Made by a program: the position numbers and the translations under genes
Assembly (NCBI RefSeq): GCF_002196705.1
Contig: NZ_NADJ01000011.1
Coordinates: forward strand, 1 to 57,598
Length of the DNA: 57,598 nucleotides
Origin: Desulfosporosinus sp. FKB
Lineage (GTDB): Bacteria; Bacillota; Desulfitobacteriia; Desulfitobacteriales; Desulfitobacteriaceae
Reading direction: 5' to 3'
In this document: piece by piece, positions 12,053-56,580 of the stretch
How positions within the stretch are numbered: the stretch's first letter is position 1
Layout: every line of letters begins with the position of its first letter
Notes under the pieces: model-generated
The model's database searches: none
Seen by the model: only the letters and a program-made list of their open reading frames with translations
What the model was told of the DNA's origin: nothing

Positions 12053-12403
12053 TGGTGGAAGCGAGGGGAATTGCACCCCTGTATCGAAGAGCGGCCACAA
12101 AAGCGTCTACGCGTGTATCCTTTATTTTAAATTTCGCCACTCATGACTCCTAAAGGCAAGGATTCATTTCAGGCTAGCTCGATGATCTTAGCTAATGTCT
12201 CCGAGCATTGACATTAGAGCGTCCTACTAATTTGACACCCTGACCCTTCACCGTAGGTCAGAAGGAAGGATGCTAGCGGCACTTAGGCAGCTAGAGCGAA
12301 ATTATCTTCGTTAACTATTTGTGTCCACCGTTTAACGAGACCAGGTGGAATCTCGACGCGCAACCTTTGCTATCGCTTCCCCGAGCGAGTCTAAAACGCC
12401 CCC
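12053..12403 (-). ncRNA. ssrA: Transfer-messenger RNA (tmRNA)
   Basis: tmRNA frees stalled ribosomes and tags the nascent peptide for proteolysis. The 5' end GGGGGCG (12403-12397) pairs with CGCTTCC at the 3' end, followed by ACCA; the third pair is the G-U needed for alanine charging. A T-arm-like GGGGTGCAATTCCCC precedes the 3' end. The tag reading frame on the minus strand (12312-12283) encodes NEDNFALAA then TAA; with the charged alanine the tag is ANEDNFALAA. AAC as the resume codon is inferred by aligning the preceding AATAGTT with other tmRNAs. Length 351 nt is normal. The 3' terminal 14 bases recur at 7438-7451. Confidence 0.95.
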
Positions 12404-25959: not shown

Positions 25960-26155
25960 CACACATCTCCTATCGCTCGTAGGTCTGTGAATTACTTAAG
26001 GAAGGTTTTCTGGCTTCAAATCATCATTCTCTTCCTATGTTTACAACAGATAAAGCAATGGAAGAAAACTCCTTGTTCACAGTGGCGGGACCGCGCCGGA
26101 TTATCACCGGCTTCCCCTTATAGATCCTCGTTGACTGAGGAGCCTTAAGTATTTT
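25960..26155 (-). promoter_or_regulatory. Adenosylcobalamin riboswitch of the cbi operon
   Basis: Contains the conserved B12-box core GCCACTGTG (26086-26078 on the minus strand). It also has the CCGGTGATAATCCGGCGCGG part with its hairpin at the 5' side and GAAGCCAGAAAACCTTCC near the 3' side, followed by a CACAGACCTA../TAGG..TGTG stem. A TATAAT at 26190-26185 about 30 bases upstream is a plausible -10 box; I see no clear -35. Controls the 14-gene operon down to cobD. Edges are approximate. Confidence 0.93.
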
Positions 26156-26483
26156 TATAAAATTATAAGCCTAAATGACGTTTCATTATATCATCTGAAT
26201 ATCTGAGTATTCTATAAGTATTAACAAAATTCCTCTTTTCAAAAAAATTTAAATTAAATCTTCACTTTTATTGATTAATACTATTTTATAGCTTATTTCT
26301 TAATTAGGCAATGTTAAGCAATTTGTTTTAAGCAATTCATGATATTTGGTAAATATTCTATAAAGATTATATAATCATTTTAACCATTTATGTTATATTA
26401 TACCACAAGGCATTTGACACTTCGCTGTCTATTAAAGAATAAGATATTTTGCATAGAGTGCAAAGAAAGGAGTTTTTGATAAG

Positions 26484-32674: not shown

Positions 32675-32734
32675 AAATCCGCCTTAAAAGACAGAAATTT
32701 GACCATGAACTTTGCCTTGATTCATGTTCTACAT

Positions 32735-32886
32735 TATAGGCAGGTCTCCTGACTTAGAATCAACGACTTATACGCCTTCCCGGCTTCCCAGTGGCTTAAG
32801 TATAAATCTCCTCGTTTACAGTGGTGGGTCCGTCTGGGATTCTCACCCAGTTCCCTATTCTCCCTTATTAAGGGCACCTATTATGT
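32735..32886 (-). promoter_or_regulatory. Adenosylcobalamin riboswitch of the cblS-cblT-ecf unit
   Basis: Near-consensus aptamer on the minus strand. It has AATAGGTGCC at the 5' end, GGGAACTGGGTGAGAATCCC, CAGACGGACCCACCACTGTA, AAGCCACTGGGAAGCCGGGA and GTCAGGAGACCTGCCTATAA at the 3' end. No T-tailed hairpin lies between it and the cblS start; a CATGAA/TTCATG hairpin does, so translational control is more likely. Confidence 0.96.
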
Positions 32887-32954
32887 CTTTAATTAATCGT
32901 ATTTTAATCCATAGAGGTTCAGATTACAAGAGTTTTTTGAATCTTCGACCTAAC

Positions 32955-53308: not shown

Positions 53309-55258
53309 TCAGTCGACCAGCGAGGAGGAGAGAAATTGAAGGGGAATCTTTATAGTTACCTGAGTACCTTGCTTCAATTCGCTCTGGATTTCAATCTCGC
53401 CCTCCAGCAATTCGATTATGGCTTTAGCTATTGCTAAACCAAGTCCTGTCCCTTTACTGTTTCGTGATTGATCTCCTTTGTAAAAGCGTTCCCAGATGTG
53501 CGGCATTTGATTTGCAGCAATGCCATACCCTTCATCTTTTATCCGGAGTATCAAAGCATCCTTGCCCTCCAGATTGGCCGCAATGTAAACACAGCTATTA
53601 TTGGGGGAATGAGTGATAGCATTGTCTAGGAAAATAATGATGAGCTGGCGTAATCGATTGTAGTCTCCTAGAAAAGGAGGGACTTCTTCTGCCATTGAAT
53701 AGCTTAATTCAATAGATTTTTTAGCGGCAAGAGTTTGCAGGTTTTTAATGGTATCTTCAAGCAGGCTTGGAAAATGAATTACTTCTTGGCTTATCGATAT
53801 TTTCCCTGATTGAAGCTGAGAAAGTTCCAGAAGATCTTTAACCAATCGTTCTAAGCCATGAGTTTCCTGGAGCATTTTGTGGTAAGTATGCTGAAAATCC
53901 TCTCGCGAATCCAGGGTTCCATCGACCATTGCTTCCAGGTACCCTCGAATGACTGTCAAAGGAGTACGAAATTCATGGGATACATTAGCAACGAAATCTC
54001 GGCGCAATTGTTCAAGACGCTCATTTTCGCTGATATCCTGAACTGAGGCAACACACCCTGTAATGGTATCATGCTTATCAATTATGGGAGAAATCGTAAA
54101 TCGCAGTACCTTATCCGACCAATTGCGGAGAATCTGCAAAGTTTCCTTGGTTTTCATCACTTGATCCATCTTAGGTTTAATCTCTAACTCCTGCAGATCT
54201 CTGTCAACATCATCTAAGGAATATGGGGCGTTCCTATTCATGATGGCTGCGAGAGCAAAATTAATACTTACAGGCTCGAGATTACAATTAAATGCGATAA
54301 TTCCTTCAGAAATGCTGGCTATAATATCTTTGAGTTTTCCCTTTTCCTGAAATAGTTGGTTAATCGTTGAACCAAGTTCTTTCGCCAAAAGATCGAGAGA
54401 ATTCCCAAGCTGACCTATTTCATCGTCTCGTTTGATGCCTGTCTTTGCCTGATAATTCCCCTTAGTAATTTCAAGAGCCGTCCGGTTCATTGCTTTGAGA
54501 GGACGAGTAAAAAGAATAGAGTACATGACTCCCAAAGCAGCTGCTAATAGAAGCGCTGCTAATAGACTGACAGCTAGAATACTGACTGCCTTGTCTAAAA
54601 CACTGGTGACCCCTGTTACAGGAGTATGTAAAAGAACTGCCCCTATGACTTTATGCTCATGATTAAAAATTGGAACGCCAATGGTAATCGTAGCTTCGTG
54701 ATACAGTCCGCTAAAACTTTCACTGGTAGATTCCTGGCCTCGAAGTACATCCTGAATTACTCTCTCGGCTTCTGCAGGCAGCGGACCTGGATTCGTCAAA
54801 ATGCCTTGTCCGGCTCCGCTTCCCATAGGTCCCCCCTGTCTTGCTCCATAGCCAAATCCCCGGCCTTGTCCCATACCTTGACCTTGCAGGCTGCCGGAAA
54901 TTACGGTAGGGTTCCCTTTGTTATCCGTAATCCAAACCTTGGACTCAGTGATGGTGTCCAGAGAACGAAGATAACCACCAAAACCTCTCAGAGGATTGTT
55001 CGGACCCGCTGTCTTACCATCAGAATCGTCCATTACCTCATCTGCTGTAGCTGCGATACTCCTCGCACTCGTAAGCATTGTTTCTTCTCGACTCTCAAAG
55101 GCATATTGCTTAAAAAGCTGCATAAATAGGGCACCAATGGTAATCATACAAATAGTGATTATTACGATAACACTTAAGGCCAATTTTACGGCCAGTTTGT
55201 TTTTAATTAAATTAATGATTTTGTCAGTGATTCTGAGACTCGAACTTATAACCAACAC
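53309..55258 (-). CDS. Membrane sensor histidine kinase with Gly-rich extracellular domain
   Basis: 649 residues: membrane segment about 25-50, an extracellular sensor about 50-222, membrane segment about 223-250, HAMP (251-300), a PAS-like region (about 305-410), HisKA with His428 in DFVANVSHEFRTPLTVIRGY, and HATPase_c with IFLDNAITHSP, DEGYGIAANQM and KGTGLGLAIAKAI. The sensor contains a Gly/Met/Arg-rich insert (residues about 125-152, with QGQGMGQGRGFGYG). It starts with GTG (55258) or TTG (55255), overlapping the regulator gene by 35 bp. Confidence 0.9.
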   Translation of the reverse strand: MLVISSSLRITDKIINLIKNKLAVKLALSVIVIITICMITIGALFMQLFKQYAFESREETMLTSARSIAATADEVMDDSDGKTAGPNNPLRGFGGYLRSLDTITESKVWITDNKGNPTVISGSLQGQGMGQGRGFGYGARQGGPMGSGAGQGILTNPGPLPAEAERVIQDVLRGQESTSESFSGLYHEATITIGVPIFNHEHKVIGAVLLHTPVTGVTSVLDKAVSILAVSLLAALLLAAALGVMYSILFTRPLKAMNRTALEITKGNYQAKTGIKRDDEIGQLGNSLDLLAKELGSTINQLFQEKGKLKDIIASISEGIIAFNCNLEPVSINFALAAIMNRNAPYSLDDVDRDLQELEIKPKMDQVMKTKETLQILRNWSDKVLRFTISPIIDKHDTITGCVASVQDISENERLEQLRRDFVANVSHEFRTPLTVIRGYLEAMVDGTLDSREDFQHTYHKMLQETHGLERLVKDLLELSQLQSGKISISQEVIHFPSLLEDTIKNLQTLAAKKSIELSYSMAEEVPPFLGDYNRLRQLIIIFLDNAITHSPNNSCVYIAANLEGKDALILRIKDEGYGIAANQMPHIWERFYKGDQSRNSKGTGLGLAIAKAIIELLEGEIEIQSELKQGTQVTIKIPLQFLSSSLVD

Positions 55259-55916
55259 CCCATATCGTCTTAATATCCCAAGGAAGTTTGGCAGGAATGT
55301 TCATTTTCGATCTTAGTCTTTTAATATGAGTATCTACGGTACGTGCATCGCCAAAATATTCATAGCCCCAAACACTGTTGAGAAGGTTGTCTCTCGAAAA
55401 AACTTTTCCCGGGTTCGAGGCTAAAACCCACAAAAGTTCAAGTTCCTTTTTCGTTAAGGAAACAGACCGTCCTTCAAGTAGTACTTCGTAATCCGAAAGA
55501 TTAATAACAAGCCCAGAGTACCGAATCACGTCGCTGCTTTGTTCCTCCGAAATATCAAGCCTTCTAAGAACGGCCCGGACTCGGGCCATAACTTCACCGG
55601 GGCTGAAAGGCTTGACAATATAGTCATCTGCACCGATATCTAAGCCCATGATTCGATCCCCATCTTCCCCTTTTGCTGTAATCATAATAATAGGCACCGT
55701 TGAATTTTGACGGATTTCCTGACAGACTGTAAAACCATTCTTCTTAGGCATCAGAACATCCAGGAGAATCAGCACGGGTTGATACTCGGCAAATTTCAGG
55801 AGCGTTTCTTCCCCATCACGGGCAACGATCGGGTTATAGCCTTCTTTACTCACATAGGTTTTTAAGATATCGAGGATACCCTCATTATCATCGGCAATTA
55901 AAAGAAACTTCTTCAT
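55224..55916 (-). CDS. OmpR/PhoB-family response regulator
   Basis: 230 residues: receiver domain with ADDNE (acidic pocket), Asp53 in LILLDVLMPKKNG, IIMITAKGED and YIVKPFSPGEVMARV, then a winged-helix DNA-binding domain ending WDIKTIWGVGYKFE. It forms an operon with the kinase downstream. Four similar boxes upstream (55965-56031) are probably its operators, implying autoregulation and control of the divergent DUF2680 gene. Confidence 0.95.
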   Translation of the reverse strand: MKKFLLIADDNEGILDILKTYVSKEGYNPIVARDGEETLLKFAEYQPVLILLDVLMPKKNGFTVCQEIRQNSTVPIIMITAKGEDGDRIMGLDIGADDYIVKPFSPGEVMARVRAVLRRLDISEEQSSDVIRYSGLVINLSDYEVLLEGRSVSLTKKELELLWVLASNPGKVFSRDNLLNSVWGYEYFGDARTVDTHIKRLRSKMNIPAKLPWDIKTIWGVGYKFESQNH

Positions 55917-55964
55917 AATATCCCCCCTACTCCATATTTATTTTACCATTAATTCGTTTCATGA

Positions 55965-56031
55965 TTGTGACAGATTTGTGGCACACTTAATGTCAAAACG
56001 GGTTCAAAGTTTTGCCATAATTTTGCCACAA
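55965..56031. promoter_or_regulatory. Four TTRTGRCA boxes in the divergent gap, probable response-regulator operators
   Basis: Plus strand: TTGTGACA (55965-55972) and TTGTGGCA (55976-55983), 11 bp apart. Minus strand: TTGTGGCA (56031-56024) and TTATGGCA (56020-56013), also 11 bp apart. Tandem repeats with an 11-bp step suit OmpR-family dimers. One pair faces each gene. Confidence 0.7.
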
Positions 56032-56080
56032 TTTATTTGTAAGCTAAAGCTGTAATAAATCATTGAAAGGATGTGGATTG

Positions 56081-56521
56081 ATGAAAATCTACAAAAAGCT
56101 TGCAGTTTCCCTAACTGTGTTGGGAATGTTGGGGATTGCCGGGACAGCTTATGCCGCTGTAAATCAGACACCTGCGGACATAACGGCAAGTGTCACGGGA
56201 CAATCAATCACTGCTGTCAATCAAGAAAGAGCTTCAGGTAAAACTTATGGGACTATTGCTAAAGAAGCCGGAAAGTTGAAAGAATTTCAAGCTCAAATGT
56301 TAGAACAAAAAAAGGCCATACTTGATCAAAGAGTTAATGATGGCCAATTAACCCAACAACAGGCGGATCAAATTTATACAGCAATAAAAAGCAATCAAGC
56401 CTTATGTGATGGAACCGGCAATTGTTCCGGACTCATGGGCGGACAAAGTATGGGACGTGGCACAGGAAATCGAATGGGTAGCGGTAAGGGAATGGGTTGC
56501 AGGCTTGGTTTATATCCTTAA
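56081..56521 (+). CDS. Secreted DUF2680 protein
   Basis: 146 residues: signal peptide (KIYKKLAVSLTVLGMLGIAG, TAYAA), a helical DUF2680 region (SGKTYGTIAKEAGKLKEFQ, MLEQKKAILDQRVNDGQLTQ, QQADQIYTAIKSNQ) and a Cys- and Gly/Met-rich tail (LCDGTGNCSGLMGGQSMGRG). ATG 56081 has AAAGGATG upstream; the longer frame from 56063 would break the signal. It is divergent from the two-component system and probably its target. The tail composition resembles the kinase sensor insert. Confidence 0.82.
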   Translation: MKIYKKLAVSLTVLGMLGIAGTAYAAVNQTPADITASVTGQSITAVNQERASGKTYGTIAKEAGKLKEFQAQMLEQKKAILDQRVNDGQLTQQQADQIYTAIKSNQALCDGTGNCSGLMGGQSMGRGTGNRMGSGKGMGCRLGLYP

Positions 56522-56542
56522 ACGGTTTACACGTTAATATTG

Positions 56543-56580
56543 ACGCTGTCTGAAGACCAATCAGGCAGCGTTTATTATTT
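56543..56580 (+). terminator. Terminator of the DUF2680 gene
   Basis: Stem ACGCTGTCTG / CAGGCAGCGT (56543-56552, 56562-56571, one mismatch) followed by TTATTATTT on the plus strand. Confidence 0.7.

Follow-up and report, generated by a model that had tools for sequence, protein, structure and literature searches.

The TTRTGRCA boxes that lie between a two-component operon and a divergent DUF2680 gene very probably represent back-to-back operators of the adjacent OmpR/PhoB-type response regulator, which would activate both its own operon and the DUF2680 gene. The unit sequence, the spacing, the promoter geometry and the linkage to the regulator and to DUF2680 are established at the level of sequence comparison; that the adjacent regulator is the binding protein and acts as an activator is inferred. 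The window, which is the whole stretch of DNA that was analyzed, spans bases 1 to 57,598 of contig C3 from a genome of 5.12 Mb. The features of the locus are as follows.

53309..55258, minus strand: sensor histidine kinase gene P0002 (Pfam HAMP, HisKA and HATPase_c), start codon uncertain
55224..55916, minus strand: response regulator gene P0001 (PF00072 receiver and PF00486 Trans_reg_C winged helix), OmpR/PhoB family
55940..55948, minus strand: probable extended -10 element for the regulator gene, TGG-TAAAAT (sequence, and TAnnnT at equal offset in relatives)
55965..55983, minus strand: regulator operator, two 11-bp-phased units (sequence, and conservation in orthologues)
55965-55972, plus strand: box 1, TTGTGACA
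55976-55983, plus strand: box 2, TTGTGGCA
55991..56034, plus strand: DUF2680 operator, four 11-bp units (sequence, and comparison with relatives)
56013-56020, minus strand: box 3, TTATGGCA
56024-56031, minus strand: box 4, TTGTGGCA
56040..56045, plus strand: probable -10 of the DUF2680 promoter, TAAGCT (equal offset in 20 of 24 promoters)
56081..56521, plus strand: DUF2680 gene P0003, 146 aa (PF10925 match, alignment and model)
56542..56572, plus strand: terminator-like hairpin 3' of the DUF2680 gene (1 site versus 0.7 expected by chance; weak alone)

The start of the kinase gene overlaps the regulator gene, and the genes for a Toprim-domain protein and a C_GCAxxG_C_C protein are found downstream of the kinase gene. 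The domain composition of the regulator is that of the OmpR/PhoB family, with scores of 93.3 bits for PF00072 and 98.9 bits for PF00486, both above cut-off. The nearest solved chains are those of RegX3 and MtrA, and the closest named relative, from Desulfosporosinus acididurans M1, is 93% identical in a search that may omit the window's own records. No NCBIfam cut-off was reached by the regulator or the kinase among the best 25 of 99 and 91 families, respectively. A tmRNA gene and two cobalamin riboswitches are also present in the window, all on the minus strand (12053-12403, 25983-26162 and 32722-32896).

Anatomy of the two operators

A sequence-only reading of this DNA had described a symmetric array of four TTRTGRCA boxes at 55965-56031. 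The four boxes are present and had been exactly placed, and the box starts are separated by 11 bp within each pair, as claimed. Single TTRTGRCA boxes are common, with 15 in the window versus 7.7 expected. The exact pair TTRTGRCA-N3-TTRTGRCA appears twice in the window, versus 0 in 100 shuffles, and twice in the whole 5.12 Mb genome; both copies are those of the array, and the genome scan that had been suggested for this pair returned no further exact site in the same genome. Since the consensus TTRTGRCA was derived from these same four boxes, the independent evidence is their conservation in relatives. Weak pair sites with no more than two mismatches number 38 in the genome versus 42 with the reversed pattern, which is no excess, and a large regulon was not found in this genome. 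The sole site with one mismatch (C12:7219) is located inside coding frames.

The symmetric four-box arrangement was abandoned because the units number two on the regulator side and four, all in a single phase, on the DUF2680 side. The unit, read toward the gene, is TG(N)CA and is repeated every 11 bp. The DUF2680-side units are TGTCA at 55991, GTTCA at 56002, TGCCA at 56013 and TGCCA at 56024, of which the first two had been overlooked. These outer two units are present in many relatives, not in all.

The regulator operator, read toward the regulator, is TGCCACAA-ATC-TGTCACAA. A search of 29 genomes of the genus provided 23 regulator loci in 22 genomes at 70-100% identity, the paralogues being at most 52% identical. 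The promoter could be assessed at 22 of the 23 loci; L034, which has Ns, was left out. Of these 22 promoters, 21 have an unaltered second unit, TGNCACAA (the exception is L041), and TGNCA is found at the first unit in 17, with departures in L016, L018, L019, L022 and L024. The two-unit element ends 45-56 bp 5' of the regulator start codon in the 22 orthologous promoters, and every one of them has a TAnnnT hexamer exactly 27 nt from the first base of the second unit. The operator contains 1.57 bits per column versus 0.29 in the 25 upstream columns, in an alignment that is anchored on the operator and favours it. Many of these promoters also carry a TG dinucleotide one base ahead of the hexamer, and together the two elements may constitute an extended -10.

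The rough consensus of the DUF2680 operator is TGACATAnTTnrTTCAAACTTTTGnCATAnTTTTGnCACA, which corresponds to four 11-bp-phased units, the second of which is usually a TTCA variant. Only the last two units are clear in the remote DUF2680 copies L089, L090, L093, L094, L095, L099 and L100. In 20 of 24 DUF2680 promoters, the hexamer exactly 16 nt after the last TG agrees with TATAAT at 4 or more of its 6 positions; the next-best offset reached 9 of the 24. The window's own hexamer at +16, TAAGCT, is a weak match to TATAAT and falls outside the good ones. The 24 promoters remained of 34 rows once L016, whose last unit is degenerate, and L048-L050, from another genus, had been removed together with L123 (a 4Fe-4S target), L009, L010 and L011 (other DUF2680 types) and L097 and L056 (G005). 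With the -10 located 16 nt after the last unit, this unit stands at the -35 position. The last operator unit occupies the -35 position in activator promoters of the OmpR/PhoB family.

Occurrence of the operator in relatives

The linkage of the DUF2680 operator to the DUF2680 gene was assessed in the regulator loci of the genus. The count of a second operator was limited to positions beyond 80 bp, past the regulator operator; as TGNCA reads alike on both strands, an unrestricted count picked up the regulator operator itself (9 of 10 versus 3 of 13, p 0.0028). Cut-offs of 4, 3 and 2 mismatches were viewed together. A divergent operator was found in 10, 9 and 8 of the 10 loci with a divergent DUF2680 gene, respectively, versus 1 of the 13 loci without one at each cut-off, and the corresponding Fisher p values of 9.6e-6, 1.1e-4 and 0.0007 are only a guide, since the genus loci are related and the test overstates their independence. 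The single exception among the 13 is L030, where the operator precedes an ABC-transporter operon (ABC_tran, MacB/FtsX) that is followed by two DUF2680 genes on the same strand. In this case, which is that of G005 (L097, C410), the MacB/FtsX-like ABC operon and the two DUF2680 genes occupy the place opposite the regulator that DUF2680 has elsewhere, and the operator is kept.

A further 15 DUF2680 genes of the same type, all non-divergent, were chosen by a weak match to model positions about 8-45. The last two units of the operator were identified with no more than 3 mismatches before 13 of these genes, 49-69 bp 5' of the start; one of the 13, in G014, is co-oriented with the regulator gene beside it. 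The operator is lacking for the gene of G012, which has lost its start, and for that of G005, the ABC-operon case. The best kinase match in G012, besides paralogues of 30% identity, is a 159-aa frame that corresponds to residues 113-255.

DUF2680 genes of another type in seven genomes served as a control; no close match precedes them, the best sites differing at 6-8 of 21 positions, a level that 8-87% of shuffles attained. The other-type genes of G004, G006, G007, G009, G011, G022 and G028 have two-unit matches with 3-4 mismatches at best, a level attained by 3-25% of shuffles, and in five further loci the other-type gene was not found by the pattern. The other-type gene on contig C8 of the window's own genome (L010) is preceded by a weak two-unit element (3 mismatches, 3% of shuffles), and a comparable element is present in G005 (2 mismatches, 0.2% of shuffles). 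Several loci were counted against the proposal. The regulator orthologues at L046 and L047 (G029 and G030, same family) have neither a divergent DUF2680 gene nor paired boxes; at L048-L050 (another genus of the same family) the divergent DUF2680 gene is kept with a weaker element of 5 mismatches; and G011 has the regulator operator, with neither of its two DUF2680 matches resembling this type.

DNA scans were made with a 28-bp pattern. In the genus, 19 sites were detected in 15 of the 29 genomes and none with the reversed control. Nine of these sites are located before a DUF2680 gene that adjoins the regulator, six before a remote DUF2680 gene and four at an operon for 4Fe-4S membrane proteins. 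Some of the 19 had helped draw the pattern; the 4Fe-4S sites of G008 and G015 had not. The 4Fe-4S operon was directly seen at the sites of G008 (L123), G015 (L113) and G026 (L104/L121), and the fourth site, in G023 at a contig edge, was judged from a shared neighbour gene. Fer4_5 and related domains are found in the operon proteins of L113 and L123, and we take this operon to be NapH-like. It is likely a second target class, judging from the placement of these sites. The sole relative of the 4Fe-4S target in the window's own genome is 37% identical.

Across 73 genomes of the order, the same pattern matched 27 sites, which fall in 22 of these genomes, with 1 control match. With the exception of one site at a contig edge, all of these (26 of 27) precede DUF2680 genes (one a remnant) or the 4Fe-4S membrane operon. 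Eight sites are outside the genus. Three of these in another family (L214-L216) and two in the window's own family are located between the regulator and DUF2680; the others precede a DUF2680 remnant beside the regulator, a remote DUF2680 gene of the same type and a DUF2680 gene of a different type. The divergent regulator-DUF2680 pairs at L214-L216 were found by the DNA pattern alone. The regulator-side pair is present with 2 mismatches at L215 and L216; L214, where the DUF2680 operator is present and no clear regulator operator was found, was counted against the proposal. Also counted against it was G041 (L212), in which the site precedes the different DUF2680 type in a genome that has no regulator match at E 1e-78. 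At L211/L044 (G040 C438), the DUF2680 gene has been cut to a short remnant and a multi-unit operator is kept.

The genome G015 has two operator-bearing targets, yet no regulator orthologue was detected there in the genus protein search. A kinase search of the seven genomes in which no regulator orthologue had been detected identified an orthologue of 60% identity in G015. The regulator gene adjoins this kinase gene with its frame broken in the assembly, and a two-unit element with 2 mismatches precedes it. In G019, which is 79% complete, a kinase match of 61% was obtained with no operator match. Two operator-like sites on contig C22 of G006 (L105, about 1610-1680) combine into a single intergenic inverted repeat where no DUF2680 gene is present, and are probably unrelated to the operator.

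Proposed mechanism and alternative explanations

The OmpR/PhoB direct-repeat geometry that had been proposed from the boxes is supported by the 11-bp-phased units conserved across orthologous promoters, and the proposed recognition sequence for this regulator by the conservation of the operator in regulator promoters. The prediction of co-control with DUF2680 is strengthened in that the operator is tied to DUF2680 beside the regulator, elsewhere and in another family. In the proposed mechanism, the phosphorylated regulator would bind head-to-tail to TGNCA units one helical turn (11 bp) apart. Binding to the two units upstream of its own operon would provide autoregulation. Binding to the four in-phase units upstream of DUF2680, the last of which would replace the -35 element at 16 nt from the -10, would lead to activation.

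The same operators may instead be used by the regulator to repress one or both genes, for example its own promoter, or DUF2680 when the regulator is unphosphorylated. The distance from operator to -10 is greater by one helical turn at the regulator promoter than at the DUF2680 promoter (27 versus 16 nt), and the responses of the two promoters could therefore differ. Repression is nonetheless rather unlikely, given that the last DUF2680 unit occupies the -35 place with no separate conserved -35 in the aligned promoters, which is the layout of an activator, and that the units leave the proposed -10 elements uncovered. A different protein, either a paralogous OmpR-type regulator or another transcription factor, could also bind the operators and control both genes; five other regulators are found in the genome above E 1e-60, with up to 52% identity, and an operator-like site occurs in G041, a genome that lacks close orthologues of the regulator. 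Such a protein appears quite improbable when set against the location of the operator in the regulator's own promoter and the way in which operator-bearing targets track the system. Among the seven genus genomes without a regulator orthologue, operator matches were obtained only in G015, which has the kinase and the frame-broken regulator, and in another family the sites are again positioned between this regulator and DUF2680.

It is hardly credible that the boxes are a chance or structural repeat, such as reiterated -35-like TTGACA/TTGCCA words. Single boxes exceed expectation in the window (15 versus 7.7) and TTGNCA does resemble a -35 element, but the exact pair is absent from 100 shuffles, the phase and the distances are conserved over 22 regulator promoters and 24 DUF2680 promoters, and the DNA scans return the same gene classes. 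Activation of both genes by the adjacent regulator is the preferred explanation. Under this reading, TGNCA repeated every 11 bp is a precise and testable recognition sequence for a regulator that is uncharacterised and occurs across Desulfosporosinus and in parts of the order, and DUF2680 proteins of one type gain a regulatory context. The signal that is sensed could be approached by following the two likely output classes, the DUF2680 proteins and the 4Fe-4S membrane operon.

Kinase ectodomain, DUF2680 protein and comparison with known systems

The extracellular loop of the kinase carries a Gly/Met-rich insert. In an alignment of kinase ectodomains from the window and 24 of the 26 relatives found, the insert appears with variable length in all 25. 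The model of the ectodomain (mean pLDDT 64.7) resembles the sensor domains of WalK and CitA, being nearest to WalK, and the insert is modelled as disordered. The DUF2680 protein matches PF10925 weakly over residues 65-102, with 27.9 bits versus a cut-off of 25. It has a signal-peptide-like start, a helical middle and a Gly/Met-rich tail, and would act extracellularly, close to the kinase. All 21 aligned DUF2680 proteins have a Gly-rich tail that often contains Met; the tail is of low confidence in the model (mean pLDDT 62.7), for which no PDB match was obtained at E below 6. At L048-L050, both the kinase insert and the DUF2680 tail have MM-type sequence instead (whole tails in L049 and L050).

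The upstream regions of 43, then 8, of 80 loci with relatives of the regulator were examined, and the following was observed in Enterococcus. Regulator relatives of 57-58% identity (L162, L163, L173 and L180) have CGACACATA-type boxes within 300 bp upstream. At L163, L173 and L180, a small divergent frame for an exported Met/His-rich protein is accompanied by a Met-rich kinase loop; no frame of 75 aa was found at L162.

The term DUF2680 was found in a single paper of the open literature searched (PMC10440598), where an excerpt applies it as a label to an antitoxin that belongs to a toxin-antitoxin network. Literature searches returned no match that joins DUF2680 with Desulfosporosinus, and nothing on this system appeared among the matches listed for Desulfosporosinus two-component systems and regulons or for YckD.

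The cpxP gene adjoins cpxRA in E. coli. The system in the window resembles CpxRA-CpxP by analogy, with a two-component operon beside the gene for a small, helical, exported protein that probably belongs to the regulon of that operon. CpxP binds the sensor domain of CpxA and inhibits CpxA autophosphorylation, as described in part of a report on that system (PMC4160245). With a fairly low probability, and by analogy, the DUF2680 protein could be a Gram-positive counterpart of CpxP that is secreted, placed under the control of its own sensor and in Gly/Met-rich contact with the kinase outside the cell, possibly through metal (copper-like) or protein-protein interaction; in some species, the 4Fe-4S electron-transfer operon would be an additional output. 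This idea of feedback comes from the Gly/Met-rich composition shared by the kinase loop and the DUF2680 tail, and composition alone proves no contact. Kinship with CpxP was not apparent from the low-confidence model, which gave no PDB fold match.

The Pho box of E. coli PhoB consists of two direct 11-bp repeats (22 bp), each with the 7-bp CTGTCAT and 4 additional bp, according to an excerpt of PMC2648988. The window element directed toward the regulator, TGCCACAAATCTGTCACAA, has the same plan, and the four units on the DUF2680 side are equivalent to two such boxes. The half-site differs, being TGNCAYA in the window and CTGTCAT for PhoB, as do the targets: the window system is predicted to act on the gene for an exported DUF2680 protein, joined in some relatives by the 4Fe-4S operon. 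The regulator has a score of 211.1 bits with the PhoB equivalog model TIGR02154, below the cut-off of 296.2. Linkage to phosphate genes, sampled through phoU, was not found, with phoU on contigs C6 and C32 and the regulator on C3; of the 38 sites with no more than two mismatches, C6 carries none, and about 22 kb separates phoU from the closest one on C32. Membership in the Pho regulon was ruled out by the PhoB model score, the location of phoU on other contigs and the lack of nearby sites.

The yycH and yycI genes stand beside walRK, whereas the Toprim-domain and C_GCAxxG_C_C protein genes follow the kinase gene in the window. The sites of WalR/VicR in Firmicutes are TGTWAH-N5-TGTWAH (PMC4168254). 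By that description, the window operator shares with them the direct repeat, the 11-bp phase and, presumably, an OmpR-family regulator as the binding protein, to which the WalK-like ectodomain model of the kinase can be added; the TGNCA unit has a conserved C where WalR sites have WA. Both proteins fall short of the WalRK equivalog cut-offs, the regulator with 223.5 versus 340 bits for the YycF model and the kinase with 341.2 versus 725 bits for the WalK model. As judged by equivalog models and gene linkage, the window system is neither PhoB nor WalRK; the regulation is of an ordinary kind, in which the site is newly defined and the target belongs to an unstudied family.
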